Below, piece after piece: positions 1,285-63,061 of a DNA stretch of 64,000 nucleotides. The stretch is from Granulosicoccus antarcticus IMCC3135 (lineage in GTDB: Bacteria; Pseudomonadota; Gammaproteobacteria; Granulosicoccales; Granulosicoccaceae). The position numbers and the translations under genes were made by a program. Location of the stretch: contig NZ_CP018632.1 of the NCBI RefSeq assembly GCF_002215215.1, forward strand, positions 6,258,501 through 6,322,500. The letters run 5' to 3'. The notes below the pieces were generated by a model that was not told the DNA's origin, ran no database searches, and saw only the letters and a program-made list of their open reading frames with translations. Within the stretch, counting starts at the first letter, position 1; every line of letters starts with the position of its first letter.

Positions 1285-4074
1285 ATGAGCAACGATTTTT
1301 CCGCAGGCCAACGCTGGATAAGCGATACCGAGTCCGACCTTGGACTAGGCACCATACTTGAGGTCGAGCACCGACAGATTACTGTGGTCTTTCTGGCCAC
1401 TGGTGAAACCCGAATCTATGCCAAGGAGTCTGCGCCGCTGACACGCGTAGCCTTTCAGGCTGGCGACATCATCAGCAGTCATGAAGGCTGGCAGTTACGT
1501 GTAGAAAAGACTGACGATATCGACGGTTTGAGAATCTATAGCGGCACGCGCGAGGATACTGGCGAGAAAACCATTCTCAATGAAGCATCGCTGGATAACT
1601 TTCTGCAGTTCCGCTCTCCCAAGGACCGGCTGTTCGCTGGTCTGATTGACGGACAGCGCTGGTTCGCCCTGCGCCGCAGCGTCTTCGAATGTCGCCATCA
1701 ATATGCTCAATCACCGGTTCGTGGACTCACGGGCGCCCGCGTCAGTGTTCTTCCACATCAGATCTACATTGCAGTGGAGGCCTTGAAACGTCATCACCCG
1801 CGCTTGCTACTGGCCGATGAGGTTGGACTCGGCAAGACCATTGAAGCCGGCATGATCGTCCATGGTTCACTGGCCAACAACCAGGTTAGCCGGGTGCTTA
1901 TCGTGGTGCCTTCGGCCTTGTTGCATCAATGGCTTGTGGAAATGCTGCGCAAGTTCAATCTGAACTTCCGCATCATGGATGCCGAAAGATTTGATGAACT
2001 ACGAGACACGGCCCCTGATGGCAATCCCTTTCTGGCCGAACAACTGGTTCTGTGTTCTCTGGACACCTTGCTGGAAAACGAAGAAATCGGCGATGCCGTA
2101 GCCGGTGCTGGCTGGGACATGCTGGTGGCTGATGAAGCCCATCACCTGAGCTGGGAACCGGAAGAACCTTCTGATGCCTATACGCTCATCGAAGAGCTGG
2201 CCATGGAGACACCGGCCGTCTTGCTGCTGACGGCAACGCCAGAACAACTCGGCCAGGCAGGCCACTTCGCCCGTCTACGCCTGCTGGATCCAGAACGTTT
2301 TGGCTCTCTGGAGCAGTACCTGGCCGAAGAATCATCCTTCGGCTGGGTCGCATCGGTTGCCGACAAACTGGCCGCCGACGAGCCACTGGATGAGGAGCAG
2401 ATTGTCAGCCTGCAGACCCTGCTCGGCGAAGAATTTACCGACAACGAACTCAAGACCCTCAGCTCGACCACAACCATGGCACTCAGCGACCTGGGACAGC
2501 GCCTGATTGGCAAACTGGTGGACCGGCATGGTACTGGTCGACTCATGTTCCGCAATACAAGGCGTGCCATCACAGGTTTTCCAGAACGAGAACTGCATAC
2601 CTACACGCTGGATGATGACTCTCTTGACAGCAAGGCTGTCTGGATACTGGAGTTCCTGCTTGAGCAATATCCTGAAAAAGTACTGGTCATCTGTTCTTCT
2701 CGGGATACCGTCCAGGAGCTTGCAGAGCATCTGCGCGTAGCCGGTGTGCAAAGTGCGCAGTTCCATGAAGACATGTCCATCGTTGAGAGAGACCGTGCAG
2801 CCGCCTGGTTTTCAGATCCTGAAGAAGATTGCCGACTGATGCTTTGCTCGGAAATCGGCAGCGAAGGTCGCAACTTCCAGTTTCTGCACCACCTGGTCAT
2901 GCTGGAATTACCACAAAGCCCCGACCTGCTCGAACAGCGCATTGGTCGACTCGATCGTATCGGTCAGACAGAAACCATCAAGATTCATGTCCCTGCAGCA
3001 CCAGGAACGCAAGACTCGCTGCTGCTGAGCTGGTACCACGAAGGTCTGAATGCATTCGAACGAATCTGTCGATCCGGCTCTGCGGTACGAGCACGCATCG
3101 CCGATCAGCTCGAACCACTACTGGCCAAGGCCGAAGCAGGCGACAACATTCCTGAAAAGGCCATCGCGACCCTTATCCAGGAGTCTCGCCAGCTAACCGA
3201 GCAATTGGACGCCGAGCTCGAATCCGGTCGTGACCGCCTGCTGGAACTCAATTCCAATCGCCCCGAACTGATCCAGGAACATCTGGACGAACTGGCACGC
3301 CTTGATCGCAACTATGCACTGCAGGATTTCATGGAAGCGGTATTCGATCGATTCGGGGTCGACATGGCTGAGCAGCGTGACCACTGGATTATCCATCCCA
3401 GTGATCACATGCAAGTTGATCACTTTCCCTTGCTGCCTGCCAGCGGCATGACACTCACCTTCGATCGCGCCACCGCGCTGACCAGAGAAGACTTCACCTA
3501 TCTGACCTGGGACCATCCGATGGTCACGGCTGCCATGGACCTGATTCTGGATGAAGGCTTCGGACAGGCTGACTGTCAGGTCATCAAGACCGATGCACTA
3601 CCGGCAAATCTGAGCTTCGTCGAAGCCAGCTATGTTCTTCAATGCACCGCTGATGCCCGCCTGAACATGGAGCGCTACCTGCCCGCACAGGTCCAGACCT
3701 GGAGCGTCGGCATTGATGGCAAGGACTACTCCGAGCAGGTGGCAGCTCTGGAGCTTGACAGCCTGAAACAGCGTTACGATCGTAATGCACTGCGCAAGGT
3801 TGTGCTCAAGAACCGCGATTCGCTGGAAAAACTCATCGATCGATCGGCGGCTCTGGCCGAAGAGGCACTACCGGAACTGGTTGCCATTGCCCGTGCAAAG
3901 ATCGACGAGGAACTGTCTGAGGCACGTGAGCGCCTGCTATCGCTGTCTCGTGTAAATCCGTCGGTCAAGGAAGAGGAAGTCAGGGCGGTCGACGAGCGTC
4001 ACCAGGCATTGATCGATGCGCTTGATGGCACCCATGCCAGACCGGTGTCCGCTCGAGTCATGTTCAATACCTGA
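1285..4074 (+). CDS. rapA: RNA polymerase-associated ATPase RapA (HepA), SNF2 family
   Basis: 929 residues, close to the 968 of the E. coli protein. RapA recycles RNA polymerase that stalls after termination, using ATP. The N-terminal Tudor-like region begins GQRWISDTESDLGLG. The helicase core follows: motif I DEVGLGKTIEAG near residue 178, motif II DEAHH near 282, LLLTATP (motif III), and in the second lobe SEGRNFQF and QRIGRLDRIGQ (motifs V and VI). The C-terminal part is the RapA-specific region. ATG start; no strong ribosome site is visible. xthA follows 23 bases after the stop on the same strand, so the two may be co-transcribed. Confidence 0.95.
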   Translation: MSNDFSAGQRWISDTESDLGLGTILEVEHRQITVVFLATGETRIYAKESAPLTRVAFQAGDIISSHEGWQLRVEKTDDIDGLRIYSGTREDTGEKTILNEASLDNFLQFRSPKDRLFAGLIDGQRWFALRRSVFECRHQYAQSPVRGLTGARVSVLPHQIYIAVEALKRHHPRLLLADEVGLGKTIEAGMIVHGSLANNQVSRVLIVVPSALLHQWLVEMLRKFNLNFRIMDAERFDELRDTAPDGNPFLAEQLVLCSLDTLLENEEIGDAVAGAGWDMLVADEAHHLSWEPEEPSDAYTLIEELAMETPAVLLLTATPEQLGQAGHFARLRLLDPERFGSLEQYLAEESSFGWVASVADKLAADEPLDEEQIVSLQTLLGEEFTDNELKTLSSTTTMALSDLGQRLIGKLVDRHGTGRLMFRNTRRAITGFPERELHTYTLDDDSLDSKAVWILEFLLEQYPEKVLVICSSRDTVQELAEHLRVAGVQSAQFHEDMSIVERDRAAAWFSDPEEDCRLMLCSEIGSEGRNFQFLHHLVMLELPQSPDLLEQRIGRLDRIGQTETIKIHVPAAPGTQDSLLLSWYHEGLNAFERICRSGSAVRARIADQLEPLLAKAEAGDNIPEKAIATLIQESRQLTEQLDAELESGRDRLLELNSNRPELIQEHLDELARLDRNYALQDFMEAVFDRFGVDMAEQRDHWIIHPSDHMQVDHFPLLPASGMTLTFDRATALTREDFTYLTWDHPMVTAAMDLILDEGFGQADCQVIKTDALPANLSFVEASYVLQCTADARLNMERYLPAQVQTWSVGIDGKDYSEQVAALELDSLKQRYDRNALRKVVLKNRDSLEKLIDRSAALAEEALPELVAIARAKIDEELSEARERLLSLSRVNPSVKEEEVRAVDERHQALIDALDGTHARPVSARVMFNT

Positions 4075-24576: not shown

Positions 24577-26172
24577 TTAATTGAACACCTGTTCACGCGT
24601 CGCCAGAAACTCGACATTCGGCCAGCGCTCCTGAGACATCTGCAGGTTCACCCGCGTAGGCGCCAGATAGACCAGTTCGCCGGAGTGATCGATGGACAGG
24701 TTCATATCCAGCTTGCGAGTGAAATCGGACAACATCTTTTCATCCTCACATCGTATCCAGCGCGCCTGCTGCACACCTACCGTCTCAAACTGACACTCCA
24801 CCTTGTACTCATCCCGCAGACGCTGAGCAACTACCTCGAACTGCAGCACACCGACAGCCCCCAGAATCAGATCATTGCTTACCATTGGCTTGAATAACTG
24901 TGTGGCACCCTCTTCGCATAACTGACTAAGCCCTTTCTGCAAGGCCTTCATCTTCAGTGGGTCCTTCAGCACTGCACGCCGGAACAGCTCGGGAGCAAAA
25001 TTGGGAATACCTGTAAATGCCAGATCTTCACCTTCTGTAAAGGTATCTCCGATACGGATGGTGCCGTGATTGTGCAGACCGATGATGTCACCGCTGAATG
25101 CCTCCTCAACATGCCCACGATCGGCCGCCATGAAAGTCAGTGCGTCATTGAGGCGTACTTCCTTGCCCAGACGTACATGCTTCACCTTCATGCCCTTGGA
25201 GAATGTGCCGGAACAGATGCGGACAAAGGCCACTCGATCGCGATGCTGGGGATCCATGTTTGCCTGAATCTTGAACGCAAATCCGGTGAATTTCTCTTCG
25301 CTTGGCTTGACCTCGCGAGTCACCGTGTTGCGCTCTTGTGGACCCGGGGCATACTTGACAAAATCGTCCAGCAATTCTGCAACACCAAAATTATTGATGG
25401 CAGAGCCGAAATACACTGGCGTAAGATCGCCAGCCCGATAGGCATCAAGATCAAATTCGTTGCAGGCACCCTGAACCAGCTCAACCTCTTCACGCAGTTC
25501 TCTGGCCATATCCCCAAGCAGTTCATCCAACTTCGGATTGTCCAGACCTTCCACCACTTCTCCGGTCTGTACTTTGCCGCCATGAGTCGAGGAATAGAAA
25601 TGGACCTTGCCGGTATGCAGGTGATAGACGCCCTTGAACCGCTTGCCCATGCCGATAGGCCAGGTAATTGGCGCACAGCGGATTTTGAGCATGCTCTCGA
25701 CTTCGTCCATCAGATCAATGGGGTCGCGCCCCTCTCGATCCATCTTGTTGATGAACGTCATGACGGGCGTTGTACGCAGCCGGCAGACATCCATCAGCTT
25801 TTCAGTACGTCCCTCAACCCCTTTGGCCACATCGATGACCATGAGTGCAGAATCCACAGCCGTCAGCGTTCGATAGGTATCTTCCGAGAAGTCTTCGTGC
25901 CCCGGAGTATCCAGCAGATTGACAATATGATCGCGATAGGGGAACTGCATCACCGAAGAGGTCACGGAAATACCGCGCTCTTTTTCCATTGCCATCCAGT
26001 CCGAGGTGGCATGTCGCGCAGCTTTACGCCCCTTGACGGTTCCGGCCAGCTGAATGGCACCACCGAACAACAGCAGCTTTTCTGTAAGCGTGGTCTTGCC
26101 GGCGTCAGGATGCGAGATGATCGCAAACGTTCGTCGCCGGTTGATTTCCTTAGTCAATCTGGCATCAGCCAT
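24577..26172 (-). CDS. prfC: peptide chain release factor 3
   Basis: 531 residues, normal length (E. coli 529). A translational GTPase that removes RF1/RF2 from the ribosome after peptide release. G1 [15 protein letters not shown], the switch region with [23 protein letters not shown]3 [14 protein letters not shown] and G4 NKMDREGRD are all present, followed by the EF-Tu-like domain 2 and the RF3 C-terminal domain. ATG start about 40 bases after rimI ends. Confidence 0.96.
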
Positions 26173-26219: not shown

Positions 26220-26711
26220 CTAGCTTGAAAACTGATCCTCGGCACCGGGCAGATTTCTGGCCATAACCAGCGCATCTTCACGTCCATCGCGCGTGTTGTA
26301 GTAGTTCTTTCGTAACCCTATCTCATTGAACCCGGAACGCTGATAAAGCTCAACGGCTCTGGTATTGGAGGGGCGCACCTCCAGAAACATGATGTGTGCA
26401 CGCTTGGCGATTGACTGACTGGCCAGATACTCAAGCAAGATGGGCGCATAACCCTGTCGCTGCCAGGGCTTGTCGATACACAGATTGAGAACATGTGCCT
26501 CATCGGCACCGATCTGCAGAATACCGTAACCGATAATCTTGTCGTCAATCATCATCAGTGGACAGATATAGCCAGCCTTCAGACAATCGCGAAAGATGCC
26601 ATCGGTCCATGCATATTCGTAGTTCCGACGATCCATGATGCCGATATTGGCGACATGATCGGGACGCATAGGGGCAAAGACAGGTACAGCCGCAGATAGA
26701 CTGGCACTCAC
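26220..26711 (-). CDS. rimI: ribosomal protein S18 alanine N-acetyltransferase
   Basis: 163 residues from a GTG at 26711 that overlaps the upstream gene's stop by four bases (GTGA), with GGAG about ten bases upstream; a longer frame to 26819 exists but would overlap the neighbour by 112 bases. GNAT fold: the acetyl-CoA loop appears as LCIDKPWQRQGYAPILLEYL, then FLEVRPSNTRAVELYQRSGFNEIGLRKNYY, the RimI signature, and DALVMARNL at the end. It acetylates the N-terminus of S18. Confidence 0.92.
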   Translation of the reverse strand: MSASLSAAVPVFAPMRPDHVANIGIMDRRNYEYAWTDGIFRDCLKAGYICPLMMIDDKIIGYGILQIGADEAHVLNLCIDKPWQRQGYAPILLEYLASQSIAKRAHIMFLEVRPSNTRAVELYQRSGFNEIGLRKNYYNTRDGREDALVMARNLPGAEDQFSS

Positions 26712-27517
26712 AGGGAAATATCTCCGCTCAATTCCGCGCTTAATAACTTCAATATCTGCCATGACTGCCGTTTCAACAACGGTTGCTCCAGCAGGTGTCG
26801 TGGGTGGGCAATGCGCCATATCGGCAGTTGCCGCCCCGGCTCTGGCAAACGTGCACGGTGTGGCTCAGCAGCGATATCACTTGCATCAAATGGCCAGGTT
26901 TCCATCAGTACCAGCACAGCACGCGTCTGCGGTGTGACAGCGGCCCCTGCCACACTCATATCGGGTGTCGCCAGGGGTTCGGCTGACATGATGCACTGAC
27001 GAGTGTCTCTGCCACTGAGTTTGATGGAGCGCAACATCAGATCGAACAATCGTGCTGCATCGCCTTCCAGCGCTGCGGTTACCGGGCCGGTGTCTGCTTG
27101 CTGGACAATGATGAGCAATGAGGCTTCTGCTGCGCCCAGCACCGGAAACACCGAACCTCGATGATGAATCGGTGCCAATGCCCCGGACAAGGCCCACGCC
27201 CCCAACTCGGCAATGGACGCGGGAGGCTGCACAGTAAAGGCCTGCTGCACCGAAACCGGAACCGCAGGCACTACCAAAGGTACCCGCACTTCAGCTACTT
27301 CAGCTACTTCAGCTACTTCAGCTACTTCAGCTACTTCAGCTACTTCAGCTACTTCAGCTACTTCAGCTACTTCAGCTACTTCAGCTACTTCAGCTACTTC
27401 AGCTACTTCAGCTACTTCAGCTACTTCAATCGCTTCAGGTGCGACGGCGAACCGTGACACCCAGGGCACAACCCCCATGGTTTTCAGACATTGTTGCTGT
27501 CGAGCCGAGAATCGCAT
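26708..27517 (-). CDS. HolD-like (DNA polymerase III psi) / UDG-fold protein with VAE tandem repeat
   Basis: 269 residues from ATG 27517. The N-terminus RFSARQQQCLKTMGVVPWVSR resembles the clamp-loader psi subunit tail that binds chi. The C-terminal half (about 125-265) has uracil-DNA-glycosylase-family features, LEGDAARLFDLMLRSIKLS and IAHPRHLLEQPLLKRQSW, without the usual catalytic GEAPG loop. Between the two, 15 perfect copies of a 9-base unit encode Val-Ala-Glu repeats. Position just before rimI with a four-base overlap is typical for psi-like genes. The best guess is a divergent psi subunit; an inactive UDG-like protein is the alternative. Confidence 0.6.
   Translation of the reverse strand: MRFSARQQQCLKTMGVVPWVSRFAVAPEAIEVAEVAEVAEVAEVAEVAEVAEVAEVAEVAEVAEVAEVAEVAEVAEVRVPLVVPAVPVSVQQAFTVQPPASIAELGAWALSGALAPIHHRGSVFPVLGAAEASLLIIVQQADTGPVTAALEGDAARLFDLMLRSIKLSGRDTRQCIMSAEPLATPDMSVAGAAVTPQTRAVLVLMETWPFDASDIAAEPHRARLPEPGRQLPIWRIAHPRHLLEQPLLKRQSWQILKLLSAELSGDISL
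27288..27422 (-). repeat. 9-bp minisatellite, 15 perfect copies, inside the holD-like gene
   Basis: The + strand reads ACTTCAGCT fifteen times without change (135 bases), followed by one diverged copy. Read on the minus strand, this gives Val-Ala-Glu units. Perfect identity shows recent expansion or active slippage. Because the unit is a multiple of three, length change alters the linker length without shifting the frame. Confidence 0.95.
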
Positions 27518-27545: not shown

Positions 27546-28310
27546 TCAGAGCGAGTGCTTGGTACGCTTGCGATAGACACGGAACAGATAATAGACCGGA
27601 CCTGACAAGGCATAGATTGCCGAGGCGATAAGAATCATCTTGCCAGGGTCTACCGCCGTCACCACAAACAACAAGAGCAGGCCCAGCAACATGGCAAAGG
27701 GCACTTTGCGGTTGGTTCCCAGATCCTTGAAACTGTAATAGGTGAAGGTGCTGACCATGGCGATCCCAGTGAACAGCGTCATGATGCCGACCAAGACCAC
27801 AACATCTGGCCCACTGACACCCACACCATCCATCACCCAGACAAAGCTTGCGAGCACGGCCGCAGCCGACGGACAGGCAAGTCCCTGAAAAAAGCGTTTG
27901 TCGGCCGTTCCCACAGCCACATTGAATCTGGCCAATCGCAGACCGCAGCAGGCGGTGTAGACGAACGCCAACACCCAGCCAAGCTGGCCGTGGTATTCGG
28001 CGGTCAGACTGGACAACGACCAGCTGTACATCAGAAAGGCTGGTGCCATGCCGAAAGAAATCATATCGGCCATGCTGTCGTACTCGGCACCAAACGCCGT
28101 CGTGGTGTTGGTCATGCGAGCTACTCGCCCGTCAGCCCCATCCAGCACCATGGCAACAATGATGGCGATGCCTGCATTCTGGTAGGACCCTCCATAGGCC
28201 AGAATAATGCTGTAGAACCCGGCAAACAACGCACTCGTCGTAAACAGATTGGGCAGCAGATATATCCCTCTGGACGGCCGCTTTCGCCCCTCGCTTGACT
28301 CCACCATCAT
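27546..28310 (-). CDS. pssA: CDP-diacylglycerol--serine O-phosphatidyltransferase
   Basis: 254 residues, an integral membrane CDP-alcohol phosphatidyltransferase with about six to eight helices. The catalytic motif DGADGRVARM with GAEYDSMAD (D-x2-DG-x2-AR-x8-G-x3-D-x3-D) lies at about 57-83. It makes phosphatidylserine, precursor of phosphatidylethanolamine. This is the Bacillus/alphaproteobacterial-type membrane enzyme, not the peripheral E. coli type. It lies downstream of ilvBH and 28 bases upstream of the holD-like start. Confidence 0.93.
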   Translation of the reverse strand: MMVESSEGRKRPSRGIYLLPNLFTTSALFAGFYSIILAYGGSYQNAGIAIIVAMVLDGADGRVARMTNTTTAFGAEYDSMADMISFGMAPAFLMYSWSLSSLTAEYHGQLGWVLAFVYTACCGLRLARFNVAVGTADKRFFQGLACPSAAAVLASFVWVMDGVGVSGPDVVVLVGIMTLFTGIAMVSTFTYYSFKDLGTNRKVPFAMLLGLLLLFVVTAVDPGKMILIASAIYALSGPVYYLFRVYRKRTKHSL

Positions 28311-44474: not shown

Positions 44475-44929
44475 TAGTGAGGTCCAGAGCACGTTTCGGA
44501 GGAGCTCCAGTGTACGCCATCACAGTTATCGAACTGCTCGACTCAACGTAAACAATTGAGCACCCGCAGAGCTGCTCGTCTTGACGAATCCAGGCTGCCT
44601 GTCACTCATCGCATTTGCATTTCTCGAACTTTCCCGAGAATTCAAGACATCTTTGCGTGACTTAATTACAGGCCATAACGCTTACCCGGTTATATCTGTA
44701 ACCCGTTAGGAATGGCCTGCTCTTGGACACTGTTATGAGAAGCAAGGCACAGGCATTGCTGCTGACAATTCTTTTGGATCTTAGTCATCACTATGCCCAA
44801 ACTTGCATTAGTGACTGATAGATCGACAGTAAATGCAGATTTTAAAAGACGAAATCATTGCTGCCTTGAGAATTACTGATAGCAAAATACTGATCTGCAC
44901 TTCATTGAATTCAGCCGGGTATTCCCAAT
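44475..44929. other. gene-free region upstream of the giant TSP3-OmpA gene
   Basis: 455 bases between divergent genes, AT-rich near the giant gene. The only clear structure is the nested inverted repeat at 44670-44718 described separately. No ORF with a ribosome site was seen. Promoters for both genes must be here but are not identified. Confidence 0.45.
44670..44718 (+). promoter_or_regulatory. nested inverted repeat, possible structured leader or operator
   Basis: AGGCCAT (44670-44676) pairs with ATGGCCT (44712-44718). Inside, AACG pairs with CGTT, and GGTTA-TATCTG-TAACC makes a perfect 5-bp hairpin at the tip. The whole forms an imperfect stem of about 16 pairs with one bulge, about 210 bases upstream of the giant gene's start. 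Confidence 0.35.
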
Positions 44930-47900
44930 ATGTCAAACTGCAAGCACGGAACGCGAGTTATACTCGCAACGTATATTGCTAAATATATCGCCAGTATATT
45001 TAGCCTCATACGAATCATTGCACCCAGACCTCGCTACTTACGAGTATTGCTGGCAGCCTTTGTCCTTTCGTCAATTTCCTCGTTTGCCATGGCAATCGAC
45101 ACCGATGGTGATGGCATAGAAAACATCAAGGATCTGGATGATGACAATGACGGCATCCTGGATATTGATGAGATTAGTTGCGGGGTCTCGGGAGAGGTGG
45201 CTTGGGAGCACAATGACAACAATGGGATGTCGTTAAATGCCAGTGTCAGCTCGAGCATATCGAGCGTTGTTTCCAACACCACCGATATCAGTTTTGGTAG
45301 TGGCTTCATAGCCCCCACCAGTACTTACGAGCACATACTCAATGGTGCTAACGAAACGACATTAGTCGGAGCAAGATCAAACGGTGAATATGCCGAAGTC
45401 GGATTTACAATAAACGGACCCGCGTATTTCACCGCCACCCAGAATGGAATGGTAGTCGGCGCTGCTAATGGTGGCCAAGGCAGTGCTGCTGGTGACTATG
45501 AAATAGCGGCAGAAATATCCAGTGATAACTTTGCCACCTCGGTTTTACTGTATGACGACGGCTACATTGCCACACCTGGAACGCAATATTCTGTTAGTCG
45601 CAATTCATTCAGCCCGTACCTGATGACCTCAGGTACTGCTTACAAAGTGAGAATGTACCTCTTTAACGAGCAGAACTTCTACGCAGGCTCAGGCACTGTC
45701 ACATTCGATGATTTCAAATTGGCCATTAATGCGAGTTGCGCTACTGACTCGGATAATGACTCCGTTCAGAACTCCGAGGACATAGATTCGGACAATGACG
45801 GCATCCCTGACAATATTGAAGGTCAGGAATCTGCCAGCTATATAGCCCCCCTGAATCTGGATACCGATGGTGATGGGATCGACGATGCCTATGATGAAGA
45901 CAACGGTGGCACCCCCGTCAGCATACCCAATACCGATGCAAACGCAGCCGACAGCGCTGATTACCTGGATACCGACAGTGATGATGATGGTGTCCTCGAC
46001 TCCATTGAAGGCTTTGATGCCAATGGCGATGGCATTGCAGATACCCTACCCGCTCCGGGCAATGCAGATACCGACGGTGATGGTCTGAACGACAACTATG
46101 ACACTGTCGTTGGCCCTGCTCCCGGAAACTCCATTGGCTCCAACGCCCCCTTGCAAAACACAGACGGTGCCTTGGATGAGCCCGATTGGCGTGATACCGA
46201 TGATGACGATGACCTGGCACTCACCTCTGCAGAAGATACCAACAGCAACGCCAACCTGGCAGATGATGATGCGGATGCCGATAGCAAACCGAACTATCTT
46301 GAATCAAGTACTGCCGATGCTGATGGCGACGGCACGAAAGACCAGAGCGATGCGAATGATGCCGACGCCTGCATCCCCTCAGCCTTTGCCACCGGTTGCA
46401 CCACTGATACTGATGGAGACGGCACCGCTGATAGCGTAGAGACATCAACCACTGACACTGATAACGATGGCACGCCGGACTATCAGGAGTCATCAAGCGA
46501 CGATGCTGATGGCGACGGCACTGCGGATCAGACTGACCCCGAAGATGCCAACGCTTGCGTTCCTTCCACATTTGGTAATGGCTGTACCATCGATACTGAC
46601 GGTGATGGAAGCCCAGACAGTGTTGAAACCGCTGCTGCTGATACAGACAACGATGGCACACCGGACTATCAAGAATCATCAAGCGCCGATGCCGATGGCG
46701 ACGGCACTACGGATCAGAATGACCTCGAAGATGCCAATGCGTGTGTTCCTTCGGCATTCGGCAATGGTTGTGCCACCGATACCGACGGTGATGGAAGCCC
46801 GGACAGCGTCGAAACGGCTGGCGCTGATTCGGACGGCGATGGCACTCCGGACTACCAGGAGTCATCAAGCGCCGATACCGATGGTGACGGCACCACTGAC
46901 CAGAATGATGCTGCCAACTCAGATGCCTGTATTCCTTCCGCATTCGGTAATAACTGCACCACCGATACTGATGGTGATGGAAGCCCGGACAGCGTAGAGA
47001 CGGAGACAACTGACACCGATGGCGATAGCACTCCAGATTACCAAGAGTCATCTTCAGCCGATGCAGATGGTGATGGCATCACCGACCAGAATGACGCCGC
47101 TGATGCCAATGCCTGCATTCCGTCTGCATTCGGTACTGGCTGCGCTACCGATACCGATGGTGACGGAAGCCCTGATAGTGTAGAAACAGAGACGACTGAT
47201 ACAGACGGTGATACCAAGCCAGATTACCTGGAATCTTCGATCGACGATGCCGATAATGATGGCACCATGGACCAGGCTGATTCGGACGATAGCGATGCCT
47301 GCATTCCTTCCGCATTCGGTAATGGCTGTACCACTGATACTGATGGTGATGGCTCACCTGACAGTGTAGAAACTGAAGCCGCTGATAGCGACAGTGACGG
47401 CACGCCGGATTATCAGGAGTCTTCCACAGTGGATGCCGATGCCGATGGTATTTTCGCCCAGAACGATCCGGACGAAGCCGATGCCTGCATCCCTTCCGCA
47501 TTCGGTACTGGCTGCGCCACTGACACTGACGGTGACGGATCCCCTGACAGTGTCGAAACTGAAACCGCTGATACCGACAATGACGGCACACCGGACTATC
47601 AGGAGTCATCCGCAGTGGATGCCGATGCCGATGGCACTTTCGCCCAGAACGACCCGGATGAAGCTGATGTCTGCATCCCTTCTGCCTTTGGCACTGGCTG
47701 TACAACCGATACCGACAACGATGGCACGCCTGACAGCGTTGAAACAGAAACGGCCGATGCGGACAATGACGGCACGCCGGATTACCAGGAATCATCAACA
47801 GACGATCTGGACAACGACGGCACGCCGGATCAAAGTGATTCAGACGGTACGAATGTTTGCATTCCCTCCACCTTCGGCACGGGCTGTACTGCCGATACCG

Positions 47901-50900
47901 ATGGCGATGGTGCACCCGATAGTGCGGAAACCGAAGCTGCTGATACCGACGGCGATACCAAACCGGATTACCAGGAATCTTCAACCGATGATGCCGATAG
48001 TGATGGCACTACCGATCAGAATGATCCAGCCGATGCAGATGCCTGTATTCCTTCAGCGTTTGGAAATGGTTGCACCACGGATACTGACGCCGATGGCACT
48101 CCTGATAGCATAGAAACAGAGACTGCCGATACCGACAACGATGGCACTCCGGATTATCAGGAATCCTCCTCCGACGATGCGGATGCCGATGGCAGTGCTG
48201 CACAGAACGACCCGGACGAGTCTGACGTCTGCATCCCTTCTGCCTTTGGCACTGGCTGTACAACCGATACCGACAACGATGGCACGCCTGACAGCGTTGA
48301 AACAGAAACGGCCGATGCGGACAATGACGGCACGCCGGATTACCAGGAATCATCAACAGACGATCTGGACAACGACGGCACGCCGGATCAAAGTGATTCA
48401 GACGGTACGAATGTTTGCATTCCCTCCACCTTCGGCACGGGCTGTACTGCCGATACCGATGGCGATGCTATTCCCGACAATGCAGAAACCCAGAACGCTG
48501 ACACGGACAGTGACGGCAAGCCTGATTATCAGGAATCATCGATCAATGATTTTGATAATGATGGCACTACCGACCAGAATGATCCAGCTGATGGCAATGC
48601 CTGCATCCCTTCCGCGTTCGGCAATGGTTGTACGACTGATACCGACAATGACGGTACGCCTGACAGCGTAGAGACCGAAGCGGCGGATAGCGACAGTGAC
48701 GGCACTCCGGATTACCAGGAATCTTCAATCGACGATACCGATTCAGATGGCACAACCGTGCAGAATGATCCGGACGAGACTGATGCCTGTATTCCCACCG
48801 CATTTGGCAATGGTTGTACAACGGATACTGACGGCGATGGCACTCCTGATAGCATAGAAACAGAGACTGCCGATACCGACAATGACGGCACACCTGACTA
48901 TCAGGAATCCTCCATAGATGATTCTGATAACGACGGCACGACCGATCAGAATGACTCAGACGGTGTTAATGTCTGCGAGCCTTCAGAATTTGGTAATGGC
49001 TGCTCAATCGATACCGATGGTGATGGTATCCCTGACAGTGTAGAAACCGAAGCCGCTGATACAGACAACGACAGCAAGCCTGATTATCAGGAGTCATCAA
49101 TTGATGATGCCGATAACGATGGTACAAGCGATCAGAATGATCCGGCTGATGCCGATGCTTGTATTCCTTCAGCATTCGGTAACGGTTGTACGACCGACAC
49201 TGATAACGACGGCACACCTGACAGTGTAGAAACCTCGTCCACTGATACGGACAACGACAGCAAGCCTGATTATCAGGAGTCATCAATTGATGATGCCGAT
49301 AACGATGGTACAAGCGATCAGAATGATCCGGCTGATGCCGATGCTTGTATTCCTTCAGCATTCGGTAACGGTTGTACCACTGATACTGATGGCGATGGTA
49401 CGCCTGACAGTGTAGAGACCGAGGCAGCTGACAGCGACAATGACGGCACACCTGACTACCAGGAGTCTTCAACCACGGATGCTGATAGTGATGGTACTTC
49501 CGCACTGAACGATCCGGATGAGGCTGATGCCTGTATCCCCTCCTCGTTCGGCAACGGTTGTACGATTGACAGCGACGACGATGGTACGCCTGACAGTGTC
49601 GAAACAGAAACGGCCGATACGGACAGTGATGGCAAACCGGATTATCAGGAATCAGCAACGGCCGATGCGGATGCGGATGGCACCACAGACTTGAATGACC
49701 CTGCTGATGCCGATGCCTGTATTCCGTCAGCATTCGGTAACGGTTGTACCACTGATACTGATGGTGACGGTACGCCTGACAGCGTAGAGACAGAAACGGC
49801 CGATACGGACAGTGACGGCAAGCCGGATTATCAGGAATCAGCGACGGCCGATGCGGATGCAGATGGCACCACAGACCTGAATGACCCTGCTGATGCCGAT
49901 GCCTGTATTCCTTCGGCATTCGGTAACGGTTGTACCACTGATACTGACGGTGACGGTACGCCTGACAGTGTAGAGACCGAGGCAGCTGACAGCGACAATG
50001 ACGGCACACCTGACTACCAGGAGTCTTCAACCACGGATGCTGATAGTGATGGTACTTCCGCACTGAACGACCCGGACGAGGCTGATGCCTGTATCCCCTC
50101 CTCCTTCGGCAACGGTTGTACGATTGACAGCGACGGTGATGGTACGCCTGACAGCGTCGAGACCGAAGCGGCGGATAGCGACAATGATGGCACACCTGAT
50201 TATCAGGAATCCTCAACAACAGATGCCGATAGTGATGGCACCTCCGCATTGAATGATCCGGACGAGGCTGATGCCTGCATCCCTTCCAACTTCGGTAACG
50301 GTTGTACCACTGATACTGACGGTGACGGTACGCCTGACAGTGTAGAAACTGAAACGGCCGATACAGACAGTGATGGCAAGCCGGATTACCAGGAATCAGC
50401 GACTGCCGATACGGATGCAGATGGCACCACGGATCTGAATGACCCGGCCGATACTGATGCTTGTATTCCATCAGCATTCGGTAACGGTTGTACCACTGAT
50501 ACTGACGGTGACGGTACGCCTGACAGTGTAGAGACAGAAACGGCCGATACGGACAGTGACGGCAAGCCGGATTATCAGGAATCAGCGACGGCCGATGCGG
50601 ATGCAGATGGCACCACAGACCTGAATGACCCTGCTGATGCCGATGCCTGTATTCCTTCGGCATTCGGTAACGGTTGTACCACTGATACTGATGGCGATGG
50701 TACGCCTGACAGCGTAGAGACCGAGGCAGCTGACAGCGACAATGACGGCACACCTGACTACCAGGAGTCTTCAACCACGGATGCTGATAGTGATGGTACT
50801 TCCGCACTGAACGATCCAGATGAAACAGATGCCTGCATTCCTTCCAACTTCGGCAACGGCTGTACAACGGACACCGACGGTGATGGTACGCCTGACAGTG

Positions 50901-53900
50901 TCGAAACAGAAACGGCCGATACAGACAGTGATGGCAAACCGGATTATCAGGAATCAGCGACTGCCGATGCGGATGCTGATGGCACCGCCGACCTGTTAGA
51001 CCCAGCGGATGCAGATATCTGTATCCCTTCAGCCTTCGCAGCTGGCTGCACAACGGACTCTGATGTTGATGGCATTCCTGACAGCGTGGAAACAGAGACA
51101 AATGATACGGATGTAGACGGTACACCTGATTATCTGGATATCGACAGCGATAACGATGGAATTCCTGACCATTCAGAAACCAACGCCATGGGCGTATTGA
51201 TCGATACCGACACTGACGGCACACCGGATTATCGGGATCTGGATTCGGACAATGACACCATTCTGGATGCCATCGAAGATAATACTACCCCGCTCCTTGC
51301 GTATAGTGATTCAGACGGAGATGGTGTTGATGATGCCATTGATGTTGACCTCACTGGTGGTAACGATGTCAATGCAAACGGTGTAGATGATGCCTATGAG
51401 CCGACTGATACAGATGCTGACGGAACACCGGATCATCGCGATACCGATAGTGACGATGACGGGATGGACGATGTATTTGAAGGCGTCGTCGATACCGACG
51501 GTGATGGTGCATTCGACTACACCGATACCGACTCCGATGCTGATGGCATTGCAGATGCCGACGAAGGTCTGAACGATACAGACAACGATGGCATACGCGA
51601 CTCGCTTGAACAGGACTCGGACAACGATGGCATAGGCGACCTGAGCGAAGGTACTGCTGATGCAGATAATGATGGTGTGCCTAACTACCAGGATATCGAT
51701 TCTGACGGCGATGGCATTCCGGACTCACTGGAAGGCGCTGTCGACACCGACAGCGATGGCATCCCCGACTTTCTGGACACTGACAGCGACGCTGACAGCA
51801 TTCCGGATTCACTGGAAGCCGGTGCAGACCCTGCCAACCCACTGGATAGCGACAATGACAACGCCCCCGACCATCTGGATCTGGATTCCGATGGCGATGG
51901 CATCACTGACAGTGTTGAAGCCGGTTCGAATGGTTCAGACCCGGTTGATACCGACAACGATTCCATTCCCGATTATCTGGAACTGGATTCTGACGGCGAT
52001 GGCATCAGCGATGCAAATGAAGGCCTGCTCGACAGCGATGGCGATGGCATCCCCGACACCGTGGATCCGGATGACAACAATGACGGTATTCCTGATGACA
52101 AAGCCGGCAGTGGTGACCTGGATGGCGATGGCATTGTGAACACCCTTGATGATGATATCGACAATGATGGAATCAGCAACGCTACAGAGAAGATGATCGA
52201 TACGGATGGGGACGGCCTTGCCAACTTCATGGATCTTGATTCGGACAATGACGGCATCCCTGATGCGGTTGAATCCGTCGGCGATCTTGATGGCGACGGA
52301 GCTGCAAACTATCGTGATCTGGACAGTGATGGTGATGGTATTGCCGATGCGGAAGAAGCAGGCGATGATCCGACCTCCCCTGTCGATACCGATGGCAATG
52401 CAAGTCCGAACTACCTGGATACCGATTCGGATGGTGACGGTATTCCTGACAACATCGAAGGCGTCGTGGATAGCGACAACGACTCGAAGCCGAACTACGT
52501 AGACACGGATTCGGATGGTGACTCCATACCTGACAGCATTGAGAGTGGCATCGACACTGATGGTGACGGAGCTTCCGACTATGTGGATCTGGATGCAGAC
52601 AACGATGGCATCGCCGACTCGGTAGAAGCCGGCAGCGACCCGCTGAATCCGGTAAATTCAGACAATGAAGGCGTCAGTGATTATCGCGATACCGATAGTG
52701 ATAACGACGGTATTGCAGATCAGGATGAAGGTGTCATCGACAGCGATGGAGATGGCCTGCCAGATTCAACCGACCCTGATGCCAACAATGACGGCATTGC
52801 CGATGCAGACTTGGGCAACGGTGATACTGACGGCGATGGAGTACCGGATTATCTGGATAGCGATATCGATGGTGACGGCATTGCCAACATCAGCGAAGCT
52901 TTCGAGGGTGATGTACAGAGCGATTCGGATAACGATGGTATCCCCAACTTCCTCGATCTGGATTCTGATGGCGATGGCATACCCGATATTCTGGAGAATG
53001 TTCTGGATGCCGATGGTGATGGCACCGCTGACTTTCTTGATCTGGACAGTGACGGTGACGGCATTGCAGACGCTCTGGAAGCCGGCCCTGATGCAAGCAT
53101 GCCAGTCGATTCTGACAACGATGGCATACCTGACTACCGTGATGAGGATGCAGACGGTGACTCACTCATAGACAGCCTTGAACAGGCCGGAGATATCGAC
53201 AATGACGGCATCCCCAACTATCTGGACTCCGACTCGGACAATGACGGAATTTCAGACGAAGAGGAAGGTAGTCTCGATACCGATGGAGACGGCATCGTCG
53301 ATGCTCAGGATCTGGACTCGGATGGCGATGGCAACAGTGATGCCGAGGAAGGCACCGGCGACAGCGATGGCGATGGTATACCCGACTCACGCGACTCTGA
53401 CTCTGATAATGACGGAATCAGCGATGTGCTTGAAGGTAGTGCCGATACCGATGGTGATGGTGTGATAGACGCACTCGACAAGGACACTGACAACGACGGC
53501 ATTCTGGATGCGCTTGAGGTGGGTAAAAATCCTCTCAATCCATTAGATACAGATCATGACGGTGTACCGGATTATCGTGATCTGGACTCTGACAATGATG
53601 GCCTGAGCGATACGTTTGAAGCTGGCGGTCTGGACGATGACGGTAATGGCCGAATTGACAACTTTGTCGACAACAACAACGATGGTCTGGATGACGGCGT
53701 TGCAGCAATACCACTACCTGTGGACGATTTTGACAAGGACAGCATTCCTGACTTTCGTGATCTGGATAGCGACAATGACGGCTTGTCAGACCTTCTGGAA
53801 ACTTCTGGAGGCGCCATCGACAACGACAGAGACGGTAAGGTGGATAACTTTGTCGACGGCAATGGCGACGGACTGGATGATGGAATGGCATTGGCACCAG

Positions 53901-55618
53901 CCCGTATCAGTGACGTTGACGAAGATGGACAATCCAATCACCTGGATCTGGATACCGACAACGACGGTGTCATGGATCTGGTGGAAGCCGGCGGCAAGGA
54001 TGAGAATGGCGACGGCATTGTAGACTCCATGGCTGATAGCGACGATGACGGTATTCCCGACCTGGTCGATGTTGATGTCACTGGCGGTGTTGACATCGAT
54101 AACGATGGTATTGATGACAGTGCGGATGCCAGCTTCGTCAATGAGGATGATACCGATGGTGATGGTGTAATCGATTCACGTGATCCGGATATCGACGGTG
54201 ACGGCTTTGCCAACTACCTGCAATCAGACGGTCAACCCTTACTAGGGGCTGCATTGCCCGATACCGATGGCGATGGCATTCCTGATGTCAGCGAGGCCAA
54301 CGAGACGGGTGAATGGCACACGGGCTTGTCCGGCAGTGGTTGCAGTATCTCCTCCTCCCCTGCTCCGGGTCAGCGCACTATCGATCCGGTACTACCATTA
54401 CTGGCACTCGCGGCACTGATGTCTCTGGCACTGCGCCAGAGGCGTGCTTCACGCCGCTGCCTGTCAGTCGTGGCGGCTTCCTGCCTGGTCAGTAGCTGCG
54501 CAACGGGGCTGAATAAACCAAGCCCTGAACCCGCAGAGTTGCACGATGGTGATGCTAAAACCGAATCCATCGAACATTACGGCAGTCATCACAGCCTCGA
54601 ACGTCACCTCTATGTCGGCATTGGTCTGGGCATGAGTAAACTGGAACCTGAAGCACGGGGTCTGGCTAATGCCCGTGTTGATGATTCCAGTCATGTCGGA
54701 GGCCAGGTAACCCTGGGTATGGATGTCAACAAATGGGTGTCAGGCGAAGTCCACTATGCCGATCTGGGTAGTGCCGGAGTCACTCCGGGAGGCCGCATCA
54801 GTTACAACATAGCCGGTGCCAGCGCACTGTTCTATGCAGGTAAAAATCGACACGATTGGCGCCGTCAGGGGTTTACTGCCTACACCCGTGTCGGTATCGG
54901 CTTTCTGAACAACAGCGCTGTTGGAGAAGTGAATATCAACAATGACAAGGGTTCCCACCTGCTCTTTGGTGTCGGACTCGAATACGCCGCTACCAAGGGC
55001 ATCGGGCTGCGTGCAGAGTACATCTCCTTTGACGAGGACGTCAGCTACGCGCAATTGGCACTGATCTACCGGACTGGACGACGCGAAGAGCACCCTGCTG
55101 CATTGCCACCGGTTGTCGAAAAACCAGCTGAAATTGAAGTGCTGACAACCACAGCGGTTGTCAGCCAGCCTTTAGTCGATGGAGATAAAGACGGTATCAT
55201 CGATGACGTTGATGCCTGCCCGGGCTCAGCTGTCGGGTCTGCTGTTGATGCGACCGGCTGTATGCATTTTGCGGGCGTTATTGAAGGTATCAATTTTCAA
55301 GCAGGCTCGGCGATTCTGACATCGCCTTCCATCGTCAAACTGACACAGGCTGTCACGACTTTACAGAGTCATCCTGATGTAATCCTCAGCATATCGTCGC
55401 ATTCCGACAACTATGGCCCTTCAGAGTCGAACCTGCATTTGTCGATCGAACGTGCACAATCAGTCAAGGATTTTCTGGTCGACGGTGGTATTGACGCAGA
55501 ACGAATCACCGTCATTGCTCATGGAGAAACTCAGCCAATCGCCAGTAATGATACGTCTGAGGGACGACTCAAGAACCGCCGGGTAGATATTGTCATGGAG
55601 ACACCACTGAAGCCATAG
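44930..55618 (+). CDS. giant 3,562-residue TSP3-repeat protein fused to an OmpA-family module
   Basis: One uninterrupted frame. Order: long basic N-region and signal peptide (cleavage near residue 55, FAMA); short TSP3 (57-82); a beta-rich domain of about 185 residues flanked by Cys, not recognised; TSP3 loops (270-450); 25 tandem 62-residue units each with CIPSAFGNGC (450-2040); classic TSP3 loops (DSDGDGIPD, 2040-3120). A sorting-type tail then follows: GSGCS with Cys3138, DPVLPLLALAALMSLAL, RQRRASRR. The frame continues directly into a lipoprotein-like signal (VSSC, Cys3190), an OmpA barrel (about 3215-3375), one TSP3 loop, and an OmpA peptidoglycan domain with SSHSDN and NRRVDI (3445-3555). 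The paralogous locus at 34603-39017 has the two parts as separate overlapping genes. An internal ATG at 54419 could give a separate OmpA lipoprotein, but no ribosome site is visible there. Function unknown; likely a calcium-dependent surface or trans-envelope fibre. Confidence 0.88.
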   Translation: MSNCKHGTRVILATYIAKYIASIFSLIRIIAPRPRYLRVLLAAFVLSSISSFAMAIDTDGDGIENIKDLDDDNDGILDIDEISCGVSGEVAWEHNDNNGMSLNASVSSSISSVVSNTTDISFGSGFIAPTSTYEHILNGANETTLVGARSNGEYAEVGFTINGPAYFTATQNGMVVGAANGGQGSAAGDYEIAAEISSDNFATSVLLYDDGYIATPGTQYSVSRNSFSPYLMTSGTAYKVRMYLFNEQNFYAGSGTVTFDDFKLAINASCATDSDNDSVQNSEDIDSDNDGIPDNIEGQESASYIAPLNLDTDGDGIDDAYDEDNGGTPVSIPNTDANAADSADYLDTDSDDDGVLDSIEGFDANGDGIADTLPAPGNADTDGDGLNDNYDTVVGPAPGNSIGSNAPLQNTDGALDEPDWRDTDDDDDLALTSAEDTNSNANLADDDADADSKPNYLESSTADADGDGTKDQSDANDADACIPSAFATGCTTDTDGDGTADSVETSTTDTDNDGTPDYQESSSDDADGDGTADQTDPEDANACVPSTFGNGCTIDTDGDGSPDSVETAAADTDNDGTPDYQESSSADADGDGTTDQNDLEDANACVPSAFGNGCATDTDGDGSPDSVETAGADSDGDGTPDYQESSSADTDGDGTTDQNDAANSDACIPSAFGNNCTTDTDGDGSPDSVETETTDTDGDSTPDYQESSSADADGDGITDQNDAADANACIPSAFGTGCATDTDGDGSPDSVETETTDTDGDTKPDYLESSIDDADNDGTMDQADSDDSDACIPSAFGNGCTTDTDGDGSPDSVETEAADSDSDGTPDYQESSTVDADADGIFAQNDPDEADACIPSAFGTGCATDTDGDGSPDSVETETADTDNDGTPDYQESSAVDADADGTFAQNDPDEADVCIPSAFGTGCTTDTDNDGTPDSVETETADADNDGTPDYQESSTDDLDNDGTPDQSDSDGTNVCIPSTFGTGCTADTDGDGAPDSAETEAADTDGDTKPDYQESSTDDADSDGTTDQNDPADADACIPSAFGNGCTTDTDADGTPDSIETETADTDNDGTPDYQESSSDDADADGSAAQNDPDESDVCIPSAFGTGCTTDTDNDGTPDSVETETADADNDGTPDYQESSTDDLDNDGTPDQSDSDGTNVCIPSTFGTGCTADTDGDAIPDNAETQNADTDSDGKPDYQESSINDFDNDGTTDQNDPADGNACIPSAFGNGCTTDTDNDGTPDSVETEAADSDSDGTPDYQESSIDDTDSDGTTVQNDPDETDACIPTAFGNGCTTDTDGDGTPDSIETETADTDNDGTPDYQESSIDDSDNDGTTDQNDSDGVNVCEPSEFGNGCSIDTDGDGIPDSVETEAADTDNDSKPDYQESSIDDADNDGTSDQNDPADADACIPSAFGNGCTTDTDNDGTPDSVETSSTDTDNDSKPDYQESSIDDADNDGTSDQNDPADADACIPSAFGNGCTTDTDGDGTPDSVETEAADSDNDGTPDYQESSTTDADSDGTSALNDPDEADACIPSSFGNGCTIDSDDDGTPDSVETETADTDSDGKPDYQESATADADADGTTDLNDPADADACIPSAFGNGCTTDTDGDGTPDSVETETADTDSDGKPDYQESATADADADGTTDLNDPADADACIPSAFGNGCTTDTDGDGTPDSVETEAADSDNDGTPDYQESSTTDADSDGTSALNDPDEADACIPSSFGNGCTIDSDGDGTPDSVETEAADSDNDGTPDYQESSTTDADSDGTSALNDPDEADACIPSNFGNGCTTDTDGDGTPDSVETETADTDSDGKPDYQESATADTDADGTTDLNDPADTDACIPSAFGNGCTTDTDGDGTPDSVETETADTDSDGKPDYQESATADADADGTTDLNDPADADACIPSAFGNGCTTDTDGDGTPDSVETEAADSDNDGTPDYQESSTTDADSDGTSALNDPDETDACIPSNFGNGCTTDTDGDGTPDSVETETADTDSDGKPDYQESATADADADGTADLLDPADADICIPSAFAAGCTTDSDVDGIPDSVETETNDTDVDGTPDYLDIDSDNDGIPDHSETNAMGVLIDTDTDGTPDYRDLDSDNDTILDAIEDNTTPLLAYSDSDGDGVDDAIDVDLTGGNDVNANGVDDAYEPTDTDADGTPDHRDTDSDDDGMDDVFEGVVDTDGDGAFDYTDTDSDADGIADADEGLNDTDNDGIRDSLEQDSDNDGIGDLSEGTADADNDGVPNYQDIDSDGDGIPDSLEGAVDTDSDGIPDFLDTDSDADSIPDSLEAGADPANPLDSDNDNAPDHLDLDSDGDGITDSVEAGSNGSDPVDTDNDSIPDYLELDSDGDGISDANEGLLDSDGDGIPDTVDPDDNNDGIPDDKAGSGDLDGDGIVNTLDDDIDNDGISNATEKMIDTDGDGLANFMDLDSDNDGIPDAVESVGDLDGDGAANYRDLDSDGDGIADAEEAGDDPTSPVDTDGNASPNYLDTDSDGDGIPDNIEGVVDSDNDSKPNYVDTDSDGDSIPDSIESGIDTDGDGASDYVDLDADNDGIADSVEAGSDPLNPVNSDNEGVSDYRDTDSDNDGIADQDEGVIDSDGDGLPDSTDPDANNDGIADADLGNGDTDGDGVPDYLDSDIDGDGIANISEAFEGDVQSDSDNDGIPNFLDLDSDGDGIPDILENVLDADGDGTADFLDLDSDGDGIADALEAGPDASMPVDSDNDGIPDYRDEDADGDSLIDSLEQAGDIDNDGIPNYLDSDSDNDGISDEEEGSLDTDGDGIVDAQDLDSDGDGNSDAEEGTGDSDGDGIPDSRDSDSDNDGISDVLEGSADTDGDGVIDALDKDTDNDGILDALEVGKNPLNPLDTDHDGVPDYRDLDSDNDGLSDTFEAGGLDDDGNGRIDNFVDNNNDGLDDGVAAIPLPVDDFDKDSIPDFRDLDSDNDGLSDLLETSGGAIDNDRDGKVDNFVDGNGDGLDDGMALAPARISDVDEDGQSNHLDLDTDNDGVMDLVEAGGKDENGDGIVDSMADSDDDGIPDLVDVDVTGGVDIDNDGIDDSADASFVNEDDTDGDGVIDSRDPDIDGDGFANYLQSDGQPLLGAALPDTDGDGIPDVSEANETGEWHTGLSGSGCSISSSPAPGQRTIDPVLPLLALAALMSLALRQRRASRRCLSVVAASCLVSSCATGLNKPSPEPAELHDGDAKTESIEHYGSHHSLERHLYVGIGLGMSKLEPEARGLANARVDDSSHVGGQVTLGMDVNKWVSGEVHYADLGSAGVTPGGRISYNIAGASALFYAGKNRHDWRRQGFTAYTRVGIGFLNNSAVGEVNINNDKGSHLLFGVGLEYAATKGIGLRAEYISFDEDVSYAQLALIYRTGRREEHPAALPPVVEKPAEIEVLTTTAVVSQPLVDGDKDGIIDDVDACPGSAVGSAVDATGCMHFAGVIEGINFQAGSAILTSPSIVKLTQAVTTLQSHPDVILSISSHSDNYGPSESNLHLSIERAQSVKDFLVDGGIDAERITVIAHGETQPIASNDTSEGRLKNRRVDIVMETPLKP
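46270..51049 (+). repeat. tandem array of 186-bp coding repeats (25 full units plus one partial)
   Basis: The last Cys codon of the first CIPSAF...GC motif ends at 46399 and that of the last at 51049, exactly 25 x 186 bases apart, so no net insertion or deletion has occurred. The 62-residue unit is TTDTDGDGTPDSVETEAADS..., ...DYQESS..., ...ACIPSAFGNGC. Some blocks are identical in DNA: 47671-47909 equals 48229-48467 (239 bases, three units apart). Others repeat one, three or four units apart. This shows recent unequal recombination. Confidence 0.93.
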
Positions 55619-62879: not shown

Positions 62880-63061
62880 GATGCCTAGACCGAGCTGATC
62901 AGACGTGATGGCCGTTGCCCGAACCGGGCAGTAGCCTCAGACATGCCAGCGACGTGTGCATTCGCACCCGAACACCCTGCCTGGCGCGATGATGCCTGTG
63001 CACCAGTGCCATTGAGGATATTCGTCAGATGTGAGGGCCGCATAGTCATGTCGAATTGTAA

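Follow-up and report, generated by a model that had tools for sequence, protein, structure and literature searches.

In E. coli, the psi subunit (HolD) of the replicative clamp loader is held by its N-terminus. Structure 3GLI contains the clamp loader with the N-terminal psi peptide bound (PMC13213242), and a 2024 review describes how this N-terminus enters the collar and contacts three DnaX subunits (PMC11253446). A 2012 review treats psi as described only from gammaproteobacteria and leaves open why chi spreads wider than psi, the latter being either missing or too diverged (PMC3290774). The psi of Pseudomonas aeruginosa (HolD, PA4679) is divergent and nearly twice the size of the E. coli protein, and it combines a conserved clamp-loader peptide and a long disordered N-terminal region with a psi-like core (PMC3197488, PMC8879598); homology searches are reported not to identify it (PMC8879598). 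E. coli psi serves as the template for the core in these two papers, whose accessible portions do not mention uracil-DNA glycosylases (UDG). UDGs with a role at the replication machinery are known: UNG2 is tied to it by a disordered tail (PMC9266487), and vaccinia D4 is a replication part independently of catalysis (PMC1936997). In a literature search no publication came up that connects psi or HolD to UDG, although Aravind and Koonin 2000 on UDG evolution, Gulbis 2004 and Jarvis 2005 could carry such a remark.

The DNA analysed here, termed the window, is a stretch of 64,000 nucleotides from Granulosicoccus antarcticus IMCC3135. It contains a predicted psi (HolD) ortholog with a clamp-loader peptide, a long linker and a degenerate family-4 UDG core. 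The protein shares the listed traits of P. aeruginosa psi, but it has an acidic linker with a perfect minisatellite inside. E. coli psi (1EM8, 3SXU, 3GLI, 8GIY) has in common with it the docking peptide, the position directly before rimI and a core homology seen between profiles; it differs in a much shorter core, in the absence of a long linker and in that no direct sequence similarity to UDG was detected. Family-4 UDGs (TIGR00758; 1UI0, 4ZBX) resemble the core in profile, predicted fold and HP motif, but unlike the window family they retain the GExPG motif and the iron-sulphur cysteines. UNG2 and vaccinia D4 are analogues that belong to another UDG family and have other partners, and a common descent of the tethers is not claimed. 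Coding minisatellites and VNTR loci likewise present perfect in-frame arrays in disordered regions, but the host in the window is a replication gene and not one for a surface protein. As a whole, the locus is likely to encode a psi with a docking peptide, a near-neutral linker grown by slippage and a dead UDG core, psi itself having probably descended from a peptide-bearing UDG.

The holD locus and its family

The holD gene (26708..27517, minus strand) encodes 269 aa plus stop and was assigned by an N-terminal HMM, a UDG-core HMM and its place upstream of rimI. The gene order is pssA-like, holD, rimI, then prfC, all on the minus strand: a pssA-like CDP-alcohol phosphatidyltransferase identified by domain scans (27546..28310), holD, the rimI open frame (26220..26819; TIGR01575, E 8.9e-33) and prfC for release factor 3 (24577..26172; TIGR00503, E 9.7e-258). 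The N-terminal part of the rimI frame overlaps holD, and the true rimI start probably lies downstream of the open-frame start. The holD gene of E. coli K-12 likewise overlaps the start of rimI, and the order holD-rimI is common to both organisms. The holD start at 27517 agrees with the conserved N-terminus of the relatives, while an alternative in-frame ATG at 27613 falls within the upstream pssA-like gene. The gene is single copy in the 7.78-Mb, one-contig genome, which also has a gene for chi (PF04364, E 7.7e-37). Other UDG-superfamily genes are present in this genome, including a fusion of a UdgX-type domain with a putative DNA repair domain, TIGR03915 (L074:421-2040); one further frame looks like Ung.

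Scanned alone, the window protein had no Pfam match, neither to the psi family PF03603 nor to the UDG family PF03167, and NCBIfam returned nothing useful. A search of the whole genome with PF03603 gave no match either, the gathering cut-off of this model being an annotation threshold and not a biological feature. A scan of genome contigs produced one actinobacterial match that was repeat-driven and was rejected. Orthologs were searched in 95 relatives. Alignment A1 comprised 25 proteins, namely the window protein, 22 others of its genus and two from other genera of its family; two more orthologs stayed outside it, L021 because a contig end truncates it and L030 because the motif filter had passed it over. 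The members share an N-terminal MG[IV]..W motif and a C-terminal core ending in HP..LL..P..KR.AW..LK, and the linker between is unalignable. Singly scanned at E<=1, nine of the 25 matched the Pfam UDG family (best 5.7e-7) and eight the Pfam psi family PF03603 (best 1.2e-4). Against PDB, the first match of the A1 profile was the family-4 UDG 1ui0 (E 4.8e-5).

Minisatellite and linker

TRF reported at 27288..27428 (minus strand) a 9-bp period in 15.7 copies with 100 % match and a score of 282. In translation the array is (Glu-Val-Ala)15, exactly 15 consecutive EVA units at residues 31-75 of the 269-aa protein, bordered by decayed partial units GAAGCGATT and GAAGTGCGG; the 15 identical 9-bp units noticed in the sequence-only reading were thus confirmed. 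The array is far above chance: the best TRF score was 53 in 200 codon shuffles of the gene and 58 in 30 shuffles of the window. Within the 141 bp no substitution was present, which by the rule of three places a rough upper bound of about 2 % on the divergence since copying, and the array would have arisen from one unit by recent in-frame slippage. The earlier expectation that slippage adds or removes Val-Ala-Glu without loss of frame was judged a sound inference. Since the 9-bp unit always keeps the frame, an on/off contingency switch by copy change is ruled out. Antisense open frames across the array were read as by-products of the 9-bp period.

A genome sample of 400 kb (20 stretches of 20 kb, from 7.78 Mb) contained 20 arrays with a TRF score of at least 50, six of them with at least five copies. 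The six include two long near-perfect arrays, one of 18 bp x 10.7 (100 %; L356:6418-6609) and one of 9 bp x 10.6 (98 %; 3195-3290). The EVA array is ordinary for its genome, and the minisatellite alone is of little importance: it is a clean example of slippage growth in the linker of a replication protein, and the specialist interest lies in the gene beneath the array, not in the array. Near-variant 9-mer arrays with up to three mismatches occurred in seven of 95 genomes, but a reversed control pattern matched ten of 95, so these matches are uninformative. Other repeats in the window lie in a 3569-aa open frame (44909-55615) that holds some 25 copies of a 186-bp unit between 46315 and 50985, and in a 595-aa minus-strand frame (61152-62936), TolA-like by reading, with repeats of 45 bp x 4.2 and 42 bp x 2.

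By the A1 alignment the hypervariable linker spans 110 residues (23-132; 27122..27451, minus strand), 19 of them acidic and two basic. A long acidic, low-complexity linker of this kind would leave the core free to move. Arrays with a TRF score of at least 50 were present in 11 of the 25 family linkers; their units are unrelated, and all 18 array rows have a period divisible by 3. We take this to mean that the linker was lengthened repeatedly and independently by in-frame duplication in this lineage. Among apparently intact UDGs that bear the psi docking peptide (psi-UDGs, see below), an array was found in only one of 86 linkers (Fisher p 1e-7 versus 11/25, kinship ignored).

The sequence-only reading had suggested that unit number tunes the reach of the clamp-loader contact. 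As an adaptive knob, the array would determine how far chi and SSB can reach at the clamp loader, or their effective concentration close to it, and a perfect, in-frame array within a tether that joins two binding parts would suit such a role. Yet linkers of 11-187 aa (median 68, window 110) coexist and are tolerated among the 25 members, one EVA unit alters the expected coil size by only about 1.4-1.6 %, the genome has comparable perfect arrays at other places, and 9-bp units are unable to switch the frame. Tuning was therefore not supported, and we regard it as quite improbable. Still less credit is given to a function of the (EVA)n tract itself, for example as a rigid acidic helix or a binding motif; 15 identical, strongly acidic units might invite it, but EVA occurs in no other member's linker, the units differ in every array-bearing member, and the exact 27-bp (27-mer) array pattern was found, by a pattern search of 95 genomes, in the window gene only. 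Most likely the copy number reflects near-neutral slippage, because one unit shifts the coil size by only about 1.5 %; with perfect arrays present elsewhere in the genome, the simplest explanation is a linker that tolerates such near-neutral slippage. The unit number would drift with little effect, since the linker need only be flexible and in frame.

Predicted N-terminal docking peptide

Residues 1-22, ending ..LKTMGVVPWVSR (27452..27517, minus strand), are the predicted DnaX-collar docking peptide, identified by a match to profile A2. This HMM was built from the 30-residue N-termini of 80 intact UDG proteins and included no psi. Among 177,635 PDB sequences its top four matches were all E. 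coli psi (3gli_O, E 0.0033; 9oyg_J, 0.0034; 3sxu_B, 0.046; 8giy_F, 0.051). A2 matched the window protein with E 1.3e-7 (Z=100), 21 of the 25 window-family proteins including that of the window, and all 27 E. coli-type psi, E. coli itself at 2.9e-5. Five-fold cross-validation recovered 78 of the 80 building sequences. At E<0.01 the peptide was present in 104 of 116 open frames of the class set described below, a count that includes the 80 which built the model, one genome twice and one false match. By homology to E. coli psi, for which this contact was shown, the peptide probably docks on the DnaX collar.

The family-4 UDGs of phages and of bacteria outside the class that were compared are almost all without this peptide: it was found in one of 80 on viral contigs and in none of 25 loci from outside the Gammaproteobacteria. 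The sole peptide-bearing UDG on a viral contig (L207:513-1280) is either host DNA or a captured psi-UDG. Most of the family-4 UDGs at L292-L313 and L315, from group f180 of the same phylum outside the class, have another conserved N-terminal peptide, YLREIGV.TP, which is perhaps a related docking peptide.

UDG-like core

The C-terminal stretch, residues 95-269 (26711..27235, minus strand), contains a degenerate family-4 UDG-like core according to profiles and model. A remnant of UDG motif B, HPRHLL, is located by alignment at residues 238-243 (26789..26806, minus strand), and an HP-type motif occurs in 21 of the 25 family members, the window's included. The window protein lacks GExPG as well as the four cysteines of the iron-sulphur cluster, and has two Cys in total; in the family both GExPG and CxxC were found in 0 of 25. 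With these motifs lost, no glycosylase activity is expected of the core. As a catalytically dead family-4 UDG it would presumably bind chi, and hence SSB.

The UDG-core HMM matched the window protein with E 1.2e-5 (Z=100) and recovered all 25 window-family proteins; at E<0.01 it recovered not one of the 27 E. coli-type psi. The window family is thus the bridge between UDG and E. coli-type psi. The sequence-only reading had proposed a psi-like N-terminus and a UDG-like C-terminal domain, to be looked for with HolD and UDG profiles. The Pfam search with the single protein failed for both, whereas the family profiles bore out either part, and they alone did so (A2 for the N-terminus, the UDG-core HMM for the C-terminus). 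By hhalign, the full-length window family matched the intact psi-UDGs with a probability of 99.7. With N-termini removed, a single comparison of the cores gave a probability of 99.3 (E 3e-20) for window family and intact UDG. The core of E. coli-type psi scored 49.8 against the window family (E 2.5e-8, a single comparison; maximum 16.7 in 200 column shuffles) and 33.2 against UDG (200 shuffles: mean 11.8, sd 2.1, maximum 18.9). Reversed-alignment controls scored 19.6 and 19.0.

An AlphaFold2 model of the window protein built without an alignment had a pLDDT of 34 and was set aside. A core model built with UDG rows reached a pLDDT of 71, and its Z was 9.9-11.0 with family-4 UDGs and 8.1-8.2 with E. 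coli MUG; because UDG rows were used in building, this model is biased toward the UDG fold. E. coli psi structures were absent among the 50 matches listed for it, which is uninformative either way.

The likeness of psi and UDG might reflect a shared alpha/beta architecture instead of descent, with the psi-like peptide of UDGs acquired by convergence on the collar. The core of E. coli-type psi is indeed tied to UDG by profile-profile comparison only, the direct HMM matching none, and the trees (below) leave the order undecided. However, the window-family psi is connected to UDG at the sequence level in every member and, N-terminus included, over its whole length; the scores of column shuffles and reversed alignments are far below those observed, psi and psi-UDGs share the place before rimI, and the peptide is nearly confined to the gammaproteobacterial proteins (1/80 on viral contigs, 0/25 outside the class). 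We consider convergence unlikely. Common descent is preferred, and psi and family-4 UDG appear to form one family in Gammaproteobacteria.

Distribution in Gammaproteobacteria and probable origin of psi

For the class sample, 143 gammaproteobacterial genomes were taken, roughly one from each family. The A1 profile at E 0.01 matched 114 of these, and 97 had a protein with both GExPG and HPxxLL, an apparently intact family-4 UDG. Nearly all of these bear the docking peptide of psi, mostly upstream of rimI; a same-strand RimI frame followed within 600 nt downstream at 84 of 116 loci (70 of the 97 intact ones), and at the remaining loci the RimI frame was farther away or there was none in the fetched piece. 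Scanned in NCBIfam, five intact psi-UDGs all scored above the TIGR00758 cut-off for uracil-DNA glycosylase family 4. PF03603 was over its cut-off in eight of the 143 genomes. In two of them (G103 and G116) the matched segment was the N-terminus of a protein of UDG type; the remaining six were without an intact psi-UDG.

A gene for chi was detected in 119 of the 143 genomes. The psi-like gene and chi occurred together in 104 genomes, the psi-like gene alone in 12, chi alone in 15 and neither in 12 (Fisher p 1.2e-4, kinship ignored). The psi-UDGs could instead be repair enzymes that visit the clamp loader via the peptide, without binding chi, the real psi being another protein. In favour of this speak the five of 97 intact psi-UDG genomes without detected chi and the 15 chi-positive genomes without a detected psi-like gene. 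But chi was present in 92 of the 97 intact psi-UDG genomes versus 119/143 overall, and in the class sample a PF03603-type psi never occurred in one genome alongside a separate intact psi-UDG. This alternative is less likely than not. Somewhat better than even, in our estimate, is the reading from sequence comparison that in most Gammaproteobacteria psi is a working family-4 UDG tethered to the clamp-loader collar, with uracil excision built into the replisome, and that the psi of E. coli, of P. aeruginosa and of the window are inactive descendants that kept peptide and scaffold and lost the chemistry, perhaps several times.

The UDG N-terminus profile ranks E. coli psi first and the core-only comparison of E. 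coli psi with UDG lies far above the shuffles; hence psi probably descends from a clamp-loader-tethered UDG. The direction from UDG to psi is inferred because family-4 UDGs with intact motifs also occur in phages and outside the class, whereas psi has been described only from gammaproteobacteria. The ancestral UDG would have carried the same peptide, and in most of the sampled Gammaproteobacteria the family gene would still encode that UDG. In many chi-bearing bacteria the missing psi probably goes under the name 'family 4 UDG'. If this is true, annotations have called it a family-4 UDG all along, base-excision repair was built into the clamp loader of bacteria, and psi is one more of the small number of replication components known to be retired enzymes.

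In a tree of the core family the degenerate rows form long branches, so that placement and order of descent are not settled. The RimI tree gave at least 15 state changes and placed E. coli-type psi and window-family psi in different clades, a pattern that points to repeated loss of catalysis in the psi family, although the starred branches force only one change. Intermediate forms were observed at L041 and L047 (G103), L043 (G130) and L038 (G149): these are either UDG-like proteins whose GExPG is changed or short psi that have an HP motif resembling that of UDG.
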